NCBI GenBank assembly: GCA_029940535.1
Contig: JAPYUM010000029.1
Coordinates: forward strand, 15,199-48,982
Direction: 5' to 3'
DNA: 33,784 nucleotides
DNA from: Vicinamibacterales bacterium
Lineage (GTDB): Bacteria; Acidobacteriota; Vicinamibacteria; Vicinamibacterales; UBA8438
The translations under genes were made by a program, and so were the position numbers. Each line of letters starts with the position of its first letter. The stretch's first letter is position 1. This document shows, in pieces, positions 1,711 through 30,466 of this stretch. The notes below the pieces were generated by a model. It was not told where the DNA came from. It saw only the letters and a program-made list of their open reading frames with translations, and made no database searches.

Positions 1711-1740
1711 TAGAATAGCACGGAAGTGCACTATTTTCAG
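1711..1740. promoter_or_regulatory. Bidirectional promoter between pseudokinase and bshC
   Basis: Positions 1711-1717 read TAGAATA on the plus strand and TATTCTA on the minus strand, so one 7-bp block offers a -10 hexamer to both strands (TAGAAT plus, TATTCT minus). The minus copy has an extended TGC and a CTGAAA -35 (1735-1740) at 17-bp spacing, and leaves about 20 bases of leader before the CTG start of the pseudokinase. An imperfect inverted repeat, AATAGCAC-GGAA-GTGCACTATT (1714-1735, two-base bulge), overlaps the -10 and could be an operator. No good -35 is visible for the plus direction. Confidence 0.5.
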
Positions 1741-6210: not shown

Positions 6211-6216
6211 TATAAT
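6211..6216 (+). promoter_or_regulatory. Consensus -10 box TATAAT, leaderless arrangement
   Basis: A perfect TATAAT ends 6 bases before the ATG at 6223, so transcription would begin at or next to the A of the start codon. No -35 match lies 16-18 bases upstream, and there is no room for a ribosome-binding site. The same spacing recurs at rsmE and holA. Confidence 0.6.
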
Positions 6217-6222
6217 CGATCG

Positions 6223-7275
6223 ATGCGCGCCTGGAGCCACACCGTCCGCTGCGTCGGGATCGTGAGCCTGAGCCTAGGGCTCGGGTGCGGCGCCCAGGAC
6301 TCCGAGGTTCCCCCAGAAGCGGCGGTGGACCCGGCCAGCACCCTTGAACCGTTGCCCGTGGCCCCACCCTCGGCCGACCCGGTGCCGGAGACGCTCCCGG
6401 AGATCGTGGCGCGCGTGAACACGCACGATATTACGAATGAGGAACTCGAGCGGGCGGTCAGAAGCGCGGAGATCCAGGCTGGCCAGGCGCTCCCCACGCA
6501 GTTCCGTGACCAGGTGTATCGGTCGGTCCTGGACCGGCTCGTGTCATTCCATCTGTTGCTGCAGGAATCGGAGTCGCGGGGCATTGGCGTCGATGAGGCC
6601 GTGGTGGAGGAGCGCATCGAGAGCCTGAAGTCGAATTTTCCGACCGTCGAAGCGTTCGAGACCCAACTGAGTGACTGGAACACCACGCTTGAGATTCTTC
6701 GTGGGGAGACTCGCAGGGACCTGCTCGTCGAACTCGTGCTCGAGACGGCGGTCAGCCCAGACGTCGACATCGATGTGGAGACGACACGTGCGTTCTACGA
6801 CCAGCACACGGATCAGTTCACCCAAGGCGGCGGGGCCCAGGCCCGACACATCTTGATCGGCCTGAGTCCGGATGCCGGGGAAGATGACAAGACCGCGGCC
6901 CGTTCGCGCGCCGAGAGCGTGGCGAGTGACCTCGCGGCGGGCGGTGATTTCGCGGAACTCGCACAAGCCCATTCCGAGGACCAAGGGTCGGCCGCCAACG
7001 GCGGTGAACTGGGCACCGTCGTCAAGGGGCAGACCGCCCCCGCGTTCGAGGCGGCGCTGTTCGCGCTCTCGCCAGGCGAGACCAGCGGAGTTGTGGAAAC
7101 ACCGTTCGGGTTTCACATCATCCAGATGACGGCGCTCGACGACGCGAGCACGGTTCCGTTCGCGCAGGCCAGCGTGCAGATCCGGGAGTTCCTCGTGCGA
7201 CAGGAACAGCAGGCGCGCACCGAGGCGTTCGTGGCCGAGTTGCGAACCAACGGCGACATCGAGATTCTGATTTAG
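6223..7275 (+). CDS. Parvulin-type peptidyl-prolyl isomerase, probable lipoprotein (SurA/PrsA-like)
   Basis: Predicted periplasmic folding factor. An N-terminal signal peptide with hydrophobic core VGIVSLSLGLG is followed by Cys in LGLGCGAQDS, a slightly off-consensus lipobox. A Pro-rich linker leads to a SurA-N-like helical region (IVARVNTHDITNEELERAV, about residues 60-190). A PpiC rotamase domain follows (about 205-310), with ARHILIGL, GGDFAELAQAHSED, NGGELG and PFGFHIIQM. About 350 residues. The frame is open further upstream, but ATG 6223 directly follows a -10 box and starts the signal peptide. It probably helps outer-membrane or exported proteins fold. xdhC follows after 6 bases, so they may be co-transcribed. 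Confidence 0.88.
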   Translation: MRAWSHTVRCVGIVSLSLGLGCGAQDSEVPPEAAVDPASTLEPLPVAPPSADPVPETLPEIVARVNTHDITNEELERAVRSAEIQAGQALPTQFRDQVYRSVLDRLVSFHLLLQESESRGIGVDEAVVEERIESLKSNFPTVEAFETQLSDWNTTLEILRGETRRDLLVELVLETAVSPDVDIDVETTRAFYDQHTDQFTQGGGAQARHILIGLSPDAGEDDKTAARSRAESVASDLAAGGDFAELAQAHSEDQGSAANGGELGTVVKGQTAPAFEAALFALSPGETSGVVETPFGFHIIQMTALDDASTVPFAQASVQIREFLVRQEQQARTEAFVAELRTNGDIEILI

Positions 7276-8163: not shown

Positions 8164-8169
8164 TATACT
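8164..8169 (+). promoter_or_regulatory. -10 box TATACT before hrcA
   Basis: TATACT (5 of 6 to consensus) ends 10 bases before ATG 8180, giving a 5' leader of about 4 bases or, if ATG 8195 is used, about 19. No -35 is visible and no CIRCE inverted repeat (TTAGCACTC/GAGTGCTAA) is seen between 8149 and 8200. Confidence 0.45.
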
Positions 8170-11975: not shown

Positions 11976-12698
11976 TTAGAAATCACCCCAGATATATTGC
12001 AGCACCGAGACGGCGGATACGACGACCGCGTCGGCGCGTAGGGTGCGTCGGCCAAGCGTGACCGCGATAAATCCAGCCGCGCGGGCGGCGTCGAGTTCGG
12101 CGTCGGTCCAACCGCCCTCCGGGCCGACCGCAAGCAGGGCCGTGGCCGGTGCCGGGCCCTCACGCACTTGCCGTAGTCCGGTGCCCGCGCCAACGGCGCT
12201 GGGTTCCACCAGGAGCAGCTTGAGTGCCGACCGGTCATGACACACGTCGTTGAATGAGATCGGAGTCCTGACGTCCGGCACGACCGCTCGGCGACACTGC
12301 TTCGCCGAGGCGACGGCCACTCGCGCCCACCGCTCCGTGTCGCGACTCCGACCCTCCGTGCGCGCCGTCAGCAGGGGTTGGACCGCCACCGCGCCGACCA
12401 TCGTCACATCGCGTACGACGTCGTCGAACTTGCGGCCCTTCAGCAGCGCCTGCGCGACCGTCAACGCGACCACCGGTTCCGGCGTGGCCGGAATCGCCTC
12501 GCAGGGGCGAACGATGGTCACCCGCGACGTCGCTTCCTCAACCCGCGCCAGATACTCGGCGCCGCGCCCGTCGAACACGGCGACCATGTCGCCCTTTCCC
12601 AGCCGCAGCACCCGTCGCAGGTGCGTGGCCTCGTCCTCCGGCATCGGCACCGGCTGTCCGACCGCGGTCAATCCGGGAATAAAGAACCGTGGCGGCAT
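11976..12698 (-). CDS. rsmE: 16S rRNA m3U1498 methyltransferase RsmE
   Basis: SPOUT-class enzyme methylating N3 of U1498 in 16S rRNA. The N-terminal PUA-like domain has PRFFIPG and HLRRVLRLGKGDMVAVFDG. The C-terminal knotted SAM-binding domain has ALLKGRKFDDVVRDVTMVGA, LAVGPEGGWTDAEL and TLGRRTLRADAVVVSAVSVL. In most members the last motif reads LR-E-TA; here it is LRADAVV, a modest divergence. Length 240. ATG 12698 is chosen because PRFFIPG is the family N-terminus and a TATAAT sits 6 bases upstream; the frame remains open further back. It is convergent with prmA rather than in line, and divergent from the kinase gene. Confidence 0.92.
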   Translation of the reverse strand: MPPRFFIPGLTAVGQPVPMPEDEATHLRRVLRLGKGDMVAVFDGRGAEYLARVEEATSRVTIVRPCEAIPATPEPVVALTVAQALLKGRKFDDVVRDVTMVGAVAVQPLLTARTEGRSRDTERWARVAVASAKQCRRAVVPDVRTPISFNDVCHDRSALKLLLVEPSAVGAGTGLRQVREGPAPATALLAVGPEGGWTDAELDAARAAGFIAVTLGRRTLRADAVVVSAVSVLQYIWGDF

Positions 12699-12704
12699 CG
12701 GCGG

Positions 12705-12710
12705 ATTATA
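12705..12710 (-). promoter_or_regulatory. Consensus -10 box for rsmE, leaderless arrangement
   Basis: On the minus strand a perfect TATAAT is followed by CCGCCG and then the rsmE ATG, so the predicted transcript starts at the start codon. There is no ribosome-binding site. The spacing is identical to that at 6211-6216. Confidence 0.6.
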
Positions 12711-12730
12711 ACGACCCTCAGACGGGCTGC

Positions 12731-12736
12731 TATACT
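12731..12736 (+). promoter_or_regulatory. -10 box TATACT for the Ser/Thr kinase gene
   Basis: TATACT (5 of 6) ends 11 bases before ATG 12748, predicting a leader of only about 5 bases and no ribosome-binding site. It lies within the 49-bp divergent intergenic region shared with the rsmE -10 box, 20 bases away on the other strand. Confidence 0.5.
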
Positions 12737-12747
12737 TTCGACTCTTC

Positions 12748-13740
12748 ATGCTGTTCGCGGACCATACCCTCGGAAAATACAAAGTCGTTTCCACGCTCGG
12801 TAGCGGCGGATTCGGGACGGTCTATCTGGCCGAAGACACCTGGATCAACAAGAGAGTGGCCCTCAAGGTGCCACACCGGCAGAACCTGAACTTTAGCGAG
12901 CTCCTGCGGGAGCCGCGTCTACTGGCCTCACTCGACCACCCCAACATCGTCTCGGTCACGACGGCCGAGAAGCAAGACAACATCTTCTTCATCGTGATGG
13001 AGTATGTGCCCGGCGAGACGCTCGAGACGGTCATCGTTGAGGGGGGGCAGCTGGACATCGACCGCGCCATCGACTTTTCCCTCCAGATCGGTCGGGCGAC
13101 GGAGCACGCCCACGGGCAGGGGATCATCCACCGGGACCTGCGTCCCGCCAACGTCCTCGTGTCGGAATCCGGGACGCTGAAAGTGGCCGACTTCGGGACG
13201 TCGCGTTTCCTCGAAATCGCTGCCCACGGGACCACGGTCATCGGGAGCCCACCCTACATGGCGCCTGAACAATTCCTGGGCGAAGCGGTGTTCGCGTCCG
13301 ACCTGTATTCCCTCGGCATTACGATGTATCAGATGCTGACCGGCGTCCTCCCATACGACGCACCCGCACCTGGCGATCTCGACCGATTGCAACGCGGTGA
13401 GCTGGTGCGGTCGCCTCGGTTGCTCAACAGTGCGATTCCGACCGACCTCGCCGATGTGGTGCTCAAGGCGCTGGCTCCGGCCGTGACCGACCGCTATCAG
13501 CGCGCGACCGAGCTGATGGCCGATCTGGAGGACCTCCGCACCCGACGGCGGGTCACGCCGCCCCGGGGAATGCCGACGCACTCGTCGACCGCTGGCGACT
13601 CGGCGGCCACGTCCATGGCGCGCGACATCCACGCCCGTTTGCGGCCGCGGGCCACGCCGCCGGCCGGCTTCTGTTGGCACTGTCGCAAGCCGCTGCATGC
13701 CAGGGCCGACCGCTGTCCGTTCTGCCACGAAGCCCAATAG
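12748..13740 (+). CDS. Soluble Ser/Thr protein kinase with C-terminal zinc ribbon
   Basis: Hanks-type kinase, probably active. Gly-loop LGSGGFGTVYLAED at about residues 17-30, VALK with Lys40, HRDLRPANVLV with catalytic Asp130, DFG at Asp148, and GSPPYMAPEQF as the activation-segment end. The usual Lys of HRDLKPxN is Arg here, a change tolerated in some kinases. After about residue 265 a Thr/Ser/Pro/Arg-rich linker leads to a two-knuckle zinc ribbon, CWHC and CPFC, at the extreme C-terminus (about 309-328). No transmembrane or PASTA domain, so it is cytosolic and not a PknB-type wall sensor. Substrate unknown. Unlike the kinase at the left edge, all catalytic residues are intact. Confidence 0.92.
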   Translation: MLFADHTLGKYKVVSTLGSGGFGTVYLAEDTWINKRVALKVPHRQNLNFSELLREPRLLASLDHPNIVSVTTAEKQDNIFFIVMEYVPGETLETVIVEGGQLDIDRAIDFSLQIGRATEHAHGQGIIHRDLRPANVLVSESGTLKVADFGTSRFLEIAAHGTTVIGSPPYMAPEQFLGEAVFASDLYSLGITMYQMLTGVLPYDAPAPGDLDRLQRGELVRSPRLLNSAIPTDLADVVLKALAPAVTDRYQRATELMADLEDLRTRRRVTPPRGMPTHSSTAGDSAATSMARDIHARLRPRATPPAGFCWHCRKPLHARADRCPFCHEAQ

Positions 13741-19435: not shown

Positions 19436-19708
19436 TTGGCGAATCACAAGCACACGTTGAAGTCACAGCGGCAGGACATTGTCCGGCGAGAGCGCAATCG
19501 GGGCCTACGCACCCGCTTGCGACGGGCGTTGCGATCGCTACGCTCGGCCATCGATGCGGGCAAGACGGACGAAGCTCGGTCGGTGCTCAACGGCACCGTG
19601 TCGTTGATCGACAAGATGTCGGCCAAAGGCATCATTCACGACAACGCGGCGGCCCGATACAAGTCGCGGCTCGCCAAACGTCTTGCCGGCGCCGTCGCAG
19701 CTAGCTAG
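19436..19708 (+). CDS. rpsT: 30S ribosomal protein S20
   Basis: Binds 16S rRNA early in 30S assembly. The N-terminus (M)ANHKHTLKSQRQDIVRRERN is the classic S20 opening; RSAIDAGKTDEARSVLNG and a long GIIHDNAAARYKSRLAKRL helix follow. It is 90 residues and very basic. The start is TTG 19436, since the conserved sequence begins at ANHK and a run AAAAAAGGA lies at a suitable distance. A GTG 51 bases upstream is in frame but adds residues not expected in S20. Its stop overlaps the convergent holA stop by 4 bases. Confidence 0.94.
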   Translation: MANHKHTLKSQRQDIVRRERNRGLRTRLRRALRSLRSAIDAGKTDEARSVLNGTVSLIDKMSAKGIIHDNAAARYKSRLAKRLAGAVAAS

Positions 19709-20667
19709 GACCGTCGCCCGCTCGGCGACACCGTGGCAGGGACATCACCCACGCCGCATAGCGCCATCACCAATCTCTCCAGCAGCACCCGGTGCTCACC
19801 GGCCGAGCTCTTGAGTTTGAGGTCTGTCTGGAACAGGGCGTCGACGGCGGCTGGCAGGCGGTGTGACGGGAGTTTCGTTCGCACCACCCAGGCCAGCTGG
19901 CCTAGCAGCATATAGGGCGCCGCGCCCGACTCCAGCACCAGGGCCAGTTCTCTCAGCGCCTCCGCCGCCTGACCGCGCTCGATGGCCCGGGCGACGGCCC
20001 AGTCGTCATGCGACGTGGCCGGACCGGCCACGGCCCGCACGTCGTCCAAGCCAATGGAGGACTGACCGGCCGCGAACAACAGAAGCCGGTCGACATCGCC
20101 CCGCAGACGAGTGAGATTCGGTCCGGCGGCCGCGGCCAGGAGTTTCGCGGCCGACGGCTGAATCGTCGAGCCTTCTTCCGACACCCGCCGTCGCACCCAT
20201 CGCTCGGCGTCGGCCAGCGTCTCGAGCACGCCGCAGGTGACGACAACCGCCGCCGCGAGCAGTCGCGTCGTGAGGCGGCGACGCTTGTCGAGGTCTCCCG
20301 ACACAAGCACGAGGGTGGCATGAGGCGAAGGCTCCGCCAGATAGGCCTCGAACGATTCCTGGTCGCGGGCCGTCGCCTTGGTCTCGCGCTTGGGCGCCAG
20401 GCAGCGTTCCGCGTGCGGCACGATGACCACCCGTCGCGACGCCATCATCGGCAACATCTGCGTCGCGTCGGTGACATGCCCCAGGGTCGTCTCCCCCCCG
20501 TGGAGTCGTTCAACGTTGAACGCGCGTAGCCCCTCGTCGACGACCTCCTCGAACGCGTCCGCCATCTCCGCCTTTTCCACCGCATCGTCGCCCAGCACGA
20601 GATAGATCGGCTCCAGATCACCGGACGCTATCTGCTCTCGGGCCGTACTGGGAGTGATGCTACGCAC
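19705..20667 (-). CDS. holA: DNA polymerase III subunit delta
   Basis: Clamp-loader subunit that opens the beta clamp. An N-terminal AAA+-like fold begins PIYLVLGDDAVEKAEMADAF. Also seen are MMASRRVVIVPHAERCL, EAYLAEPSPHATLVLVSGDLDKRRRL, then RVSEEGSTIQPSAAKLLAAAAG, NLTRLRGDVDRLLLFA and a C-terminal collar with LLGQLAWVVRTKLPS, all characteristic of HolA. 320 residues. The GTG start (20667) is preceded by TAGAAT with 6 bases between. It forms the end of leuS-lptE-holA, an order also known from many proteobacteria, but may have its own leaderless promoter. Confidence 0.92.
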   Translation of the reverse strand: MRSITPSTAREQIASGDLEPIYLVLGDDAVEKAEMADAFEEVVDEGLRAFNVERLHGGETTLGHVTDATQMLPMMASRRVVIVPHAERCLAPKRETKATARDQESFEAYLAEPSPHATLVLVSGDLDKRRRLTTRLLAAAVVVTCGVLETLADAERWVRRRVSEEGSTIQPSAAKLLAAAAGPNLTRLRGDVDRLLLFAAGQSSIGLDDVRAVAGPATSHDDWAVARAIERGQAAEALRELALVLESGAAPYMLLGQLAWVVRTKLPSHRLPAAVDALFQTDLKLKSSAGEHRVLLERLVMALCGVGDVPATVSPSGRRS

Positions 20668-20673
20668 GTCGAG

Positions 20674-20679
20674 ATTCTA
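20674..20679 (-). promoter_or_regulatory. -10 box TAGAAT with 6-base spacing to holA start
   Basis: On the minus strand TAGAAT (5 of 6) is followed by CTCGAC and then GTG, the holA start. This matches the TATAAT-N6-start layout seen at 6211 and 12705 and would give a leaderless holA transcript inside the leuS operon. No -35 match. Confidence 0.45.
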
Positions 20680-20729
20680 CCAGGGTGCCGAAAACCCACC
20701 GTGGGGCGGTGGGAGCGGGCCCTCAACCG

Positions 20730-30437: not shown

Positions 30438-30466
30438 TTGACCGCGGCCGAGGAGCGGTGTACGGT
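30438..30466 (+). promoter_or_regulatory. Candidate promoter for xsc
   Basis: TTGACC (30438-30443, 5 of 6) and TACGGT (30461-30466, 3 of 6) are 17 bp apart. The -10 ends 8 bases before ATG 30475, predicting a leader of 1-3 bases. This is one of the few places in the window where a good -35 is seen. Confidence 0.4.

Follow-up and report, generated by a model that had tools for sequence, protein, structure and literature searches.

The window analysed here is the whole 33,784-nucleotide stretch of contig JAPYUM010000029.1, from a member of the Vicinamibacterales (Acidobacteriota), and several of its genes have a -10-like hexamer a short distance ahead of the start codon. The number of bases between the box and the start codon is written below as N6, N7 and so on. 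The features concerned, with their window coordinates and strand, are as follows.

1711..1716, plus strand: -10-like box TAGAAT of bshC, N9 to GTG 1726
6211..6216, plus strand: -10 box TATAAT of the surA-like gene, read directly, followed by the spacer CGATCG (N6) and ATG 6223
6223..7275, plus strand: gene for a SurA-like peptidyl-prolyl isomerase (Pfam Rotamase_3, 7.5e-28, and SurA_N domains), predicted leaderless
8164..8169, plus strand: -10 box TATACT of hrcA, N10 to ATG 8180 (HrcA, Pfam 1.9e-40)
11976..12698, minus strand: rsmE, 16S rRNA methyltransferase family (Pfam Methyltrans_RNA, 3e-36), predicted leaderless
12705..12710, minus strand: -10 box TATAAT of rsmE, N6 to ATG 12698-12696
12731..12736, plus strand: -10 box TATACT ahead of the kinase gene, N11 to ATG 12748; a leader of about 5 bases is predicted
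12748..13740, plus strand: Ser/Thr protein kinase gene (Pfam Pkinase, 2e-48), near-leaderless and divergent from rsmE
19705..20667, minus strand: holA, DNA polymerase III delta subunit (Pfam DNA_pol3_delta, 5.4e-14)
20674..20679, minus strand: -10-like box TAGAAT of holA, a weak case, N6 to GTG 20667-20665
20691..20713, minus strand: hairpin CCCACCG-CCCCA-CGGTGGG followed by TTTT, between lptE and holA (-12.7 kcal/mol)
30461..30466, plus strand: weak -10-like box TACGGT of a thiamine-pyrophosphate enzyme gene ('xsc'), N8 to ATG 30475

A sequence-only reading of this DNA had described the TATAAT-N6-ATG layout at the surA-like gene and its recurrence on the minus strand at rsmE (TATAAT, ATG) and holA (TAGAAT, GTG), and the sequence reads as claimed at all three. 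The coding score of the surA-like gene is positive past ATG 6223 and negative ahead of it. No -35 element or Shine-Dalgarno (SD) sequence stands out in the three N6 cases, which agrees with the same reading, and neither appears as a group signal in the 56 genes of this kind described below. Three other genes had been called near-leaderless; their spacings hold (hrcA N10, the kinase N11 and 'xsc' N8), but the box of the last is weaker, and Pfam identifies its product only as a generic thiamine-pyrophosphate enzyme, leaving the name xsc unproven. The hairpin between lptE and holA is terminator-like, but it is followed by four T only and falls under the threshold of the terminator scan. Given this hairpin and its short T run, a private holA promoter would make sense as a possibility.

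Box counts and a gene-level model

The genome holding the window is that of an uncultivated bacterium (4.83 Mb in 228 contigs, 96.85% complete). Patterns were counted over the whole genome, and 916 kb (19%) of it underlies the gene-level statistics. Base composition predicts about 2.4 copies of TATAAT-N6-ATG; there are 14, and none of the reversed pattern used as a control. At control spacings of 13–15 bases from ATG, TATAAT is found eight times, or 2.7 per spacing. Two of the perfect sites lie in the window, where 0.013 would be expected by base composition (P ~9e-5). All but one of the 14 open a convincing ORF, with a coding score that is positive inside and near zero or negative just upstream. 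Pfam supports the identity of a DAHP/KDO8P-synthase family enzyme, QueF, a VapB antitoxin, a metallo-beta-lactamase-fold protein, LexA, a leucyl aminopeptidase and an aminotransferase among the products, as well as the SurA-like protein and RsmE. Among these 13 genes, L003 and L004 are small and antitoxin-like, one being VapB by Pfam and the other judged by eye only.

Genes were called in the 916 kb with a purpose-built coding-score caller that chooses starts without regard to any upstream motif (793 genes, 86% coding); the gene starts used here are those of this simple caller rather than of a curated annotation. Ahead of candidate ATG starts, TANNNT is found twice at N5, 30 times at N6, 18 times at N7 and ten times at N8, over a background of 4.6 per spacing, and the excess at N6 is significant (P 4e-15). 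ATG and GTG codons inside genes of the same 916 kb give no spacing peak, and GTG starts of this genome give a weak excess at N6 (9 versus 4.3).

The upstream regions of 776 genes were also fitted with a model of three classes: a -10 box at any spacing from 0 to 30, a Shine-Dalgarno sequence, or neither. When started from TATAAT with a flat spacing distribution, the model converges on N6 (29%) and N7 (14%), leaves N5 nearly empty and shows a further shoulder at N9–N11. The box is recovered only from the TATAAT start; fits begun from unrelated motifs (TTTTTT, CATCAT) ended in codon-like patterns. A box at N5–N8 with P>0.5 is assigned to 56 of the 776 genes, compared with one or two in dinucleotide-shuffled upstream regions, and box-bearing genes make up 6.8–7.2% of the total against 0.1–0.3% in the shuffles. 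The share is 7.7% in contigs fetched for their hits and 6.8% in the rest. The surA-like gene is absent from the 56, its ATG lying 48 bases inside the start chosen by the caller (6175), and the estimate of about 7% is slightly low because the search was limited to 45 bases and missed it. The enrichment of the -10/N6/start layout that the sequence-only reading had proposed to look for genome-wide against shuffled controls is therefore clear, with a sharp peak at N6, a shoulder at N7 and next to nothing at N5.

The box learnt by the model is T-A-n-A-a-T, with frequencies of 0.88 for T1, 0.84 for A2 and 1.00 for T6 in the 56 sites, values that are partly circular in that the sites were chosen with the same model. 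SD-like sites are found in none of the 56 genes, as against 17% of the other genes. A search of the 56 for a -35 element (TTGACA, 15–19 bases) gave no signal, the mean best match being 2.50 of 6 positions compared with 2.65 in shuffled sequence. The TG of an extended -10 precedes the box in 12 of the 56 (2.5 expected), which is a minority of sites. Box genes are about twice as common among divergent or well-spaced genes (9%) as among those that follow a co-directional neighbour by under 40 bases (4%).

Conservation and distribution

The three N6 cases of the window differ in how far they are conserved. The surA box is kept at N6 in several members of the family (57–74% protein identity) and at N7 in the closest relative (93% identity), and its conservation is confined to the family. 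Of 29 other rsmE loci in the order, 21 have TANNNT at N6–N8 (N6 in 12, N7 in six, N8 in three, and none closer than six bases), and the box is kept down to about 45% protein identity. Around the box, these loci diverge in the rest of their upstream sequence, and some start with ATG, others with GTG. Under independence, the probability of such conservation is about 2e-30, a figure inflated by the relatedness of the genomes. The holA layout recurs in one of 29 other loci (L248), and elsewhere holA mostly starts right behind the stop codon of the upstream gene.

Beyond individual genes, the family as a whole has 303 N6 sites against 110 per control spacing, with an excess in 28 of 28 genomes, and 17 other genomes of the order have 106 against 29 (3.7 times the control spacing, P 8e-19). 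Elsewhere in the phylum the ratio to control spacing is 3.1 in family f13, 4.0 in genus g46 of family f33 and 2.0 in family f16, and families f26, f28, f30, f42 and f50 show no N6 excess over control spacing. Perfect TATAAT-N6-ATG sites number 36–87 per genome in three genomes of f13 (G004, G020 and G047) and three of f33/g46 (G034, G083 and G138), far above the counts in the family of the window, and leaderless expression may be heavier in these two groups, judging from the counts. The gene-level model gives 14% for G083 (182 kb), and a sample of G004 (44 kb, 37 genes) was too small for a usable fit. For G217, a member of the window's family with 70% GC, 400 kb gave 5% with the model of the window's own genome and 12% with one fitted to G217; its gene caller was trained from the own-genome model, self-training having given wrong frames.

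Genomes of family f48, including G088, have almost no TATAAT near gene starts. G088 was tried as a negative control and was not clean, as TATAAT is almost absent, yet TANNNT precedes ATG at N6–N10 in the 200 kb examined. This family is possibly leaderless with a GC-rich form of the -10 box.

Probable leaderless promoters and alternative readings

The observed combination of the box, its exact spacing, statistical excess, conservation and the missing -35 and SD sequences very probably marks promoters of the housekeeping sigma factor that would give leaderless mRNAs. With the -10 box at this distance, RNA polymerase would begin transcription at the initial base of the start codon, and the message, lacking both a 5' leader and a ribosome-binding site, would be translated by ribosomes that recognise a 5'-terminal start codon. 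RNA polymerase usually starts about 7–9 bases past the -10 box. N5 would then be nearly empty because a transcript from that spacing would lack the opening base of the start codon, and the main peak would fall at N6, followed by N7, because the purine of the start codon occupies the first favoured start position at N6 and the second at N7. We infer that transcription starts on the start codon and that translation is leaderless. On these estimates about 7% of genes, more often those at the heads of transcription units, would be built in this way, and many others would use leaders with Shine-Dalgarno sequences.

The hexamer might instead be an unstructured, A/U-rich translation enhancer within a longer leader, with the promoter further upstream, as in Bacteroidota. 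The sites do sit at the position of a ribosome-binding site and have no SD sequence, and initiation of the non-SD type is known in Bacteroidota (PMC6847099). However, the nearly fixed T1, A2 and T6, together with the TG in front, are the signature of a -10 box and not of general A/U enrichment, and the spacing is held to within one or two bases with N5 nearly empty, so we consider an enhancer very improbable. There is similarly little probability that the transcripts have a very short leader of 1–5 bases rather than none, a case in which translation would rely on the same recognition of the 5' end. The shoulders of the model at N7 and N9–N11 would suit such leaders, as would the kinase (N11) and hrcA (N10) in the window, but the main peak is at N6, where the start-codon purine is at the first favoured start position. 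Least probable of all is chance, by which some TATAAT would fall six bases from an ATG in a long window: it may account for holA, whose layout recurs so rarely, and for some lone TANNNT sites, but for surA and rsmE it is refuted by the genome-wide excess with 13 of 14 sites at real gene starts, by the conservation at rsmE (with independence assumed) and by the excess in every genome of the family.

Leaderless genes have been predicted in this phylum before: Zheng et al. 2011 (PMC3160421, Table 2) reported them in three of three Acidobacteria genomes, at 9.7–19.4% of genes (average 13.3%). Their TA-led genes resemble those described here in having TANNNT about 10–12 bases before the start codon and no SD sequence, alongside SD-led genes in the same genome, and the distance of their first T from the start, about 12 bases or roughly N6, is what is found here. 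The share here is somewhat lower, at about 7%, and the enrichment is patchy across the families of the phylum. The suggestion that this would be notable as a frequent mode in the lineage thus stands as regards enrichment, and is softened as regards novelty because of this earlier prediction. More broadly, GeneMarkS-2 has predicted leaderless transcription in 21.6% of bacterial species, as quoted in PMC9581028. A literature search conducted largely outside subscription journals returned neither a report of leaderless genes in this lineage nor any mapped 5' ends from the phylum.

In Deinococcus-Thermus, -10 motifs adjacent to ORFs were shown experimentally to act as promoters without a -35 element (Zhong et al. 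2025, PMC12340547). Shared with the present case are TANNNT about 6–7 bases before the ORF, no need for a -35 and classical promoters alongside. In D. radiodurans, however, about a third of genes and a TACACT-type box are involved, compared with about 7% and a TATAAT-type box here, and promoter and sigma-binding assays are available for that group, whereas the promoters described here are predicted from their sequence. The leaderless transcripts of Mycobacterium tuberculosis (Cortes et al. 2013, PMC3898074) also have a TANNNT -10 box and no SD sequence; those were mapped by RNA-seq, whereas ours are predicted, and in the genome studied here ATG is clearly preferred over GTG. Toxin-antitoxin transcripts of M. 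tuberculosis are predominantly leaderless (PMC8485053); among the 13 genes with a perfect layout here, one or two are antitoxin-like.

While the leaderless mode itself is known, its predicted place in this Acidobacteriota lineage is new and well supported by the comparisons above. In this uncultivated lineage leaderless expression would be a regular and conserved mode, with no recognisable -35 needed, and its uneven spread over the families of one phylum makes gain and loss comparable. For gene starts in these genomes, leaderless-aware calling is advised, and conservation of the box pins down the start codons of surA and rsmE.

Predicted promoters at lexA and between rsmE and the kinase gene

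At lexA (L008, G000:C143:13214-13260), the box of the TATAAT-N6-ATG layout abuts the palindrome ATAATACAAATGTATTAT. The palindrome is a likely LexA operator for self-repression; no second close copy of it was found near a gene start in the 916 kb read.

The genes for RsmE and the protein kinase are divergent in most members of the order (window 12699-12747; loci L199-L228), both with predicted short leaders or none. Many of these genomes have a TATACT box ahead of the kinase gene, at variable spacing. In L212, L216, L222, L224 and L226 some 12 bases separate the two -10 boxes; in L213 the boxes overlap, sharing one symmetrical AGTATAGT. With the boxes this close or overlapping, neither promoter would have room for an undisturbed -35 of its own. 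We suggest, tentatively and with more doubt than confidence, that back-to-back leaderless or near-leaderless promoters across the order could be mutually exclusive, linking a signalling kinase with an enzyme that modifies rRNA; the symmetrical sequence in L213 could serve both directions.
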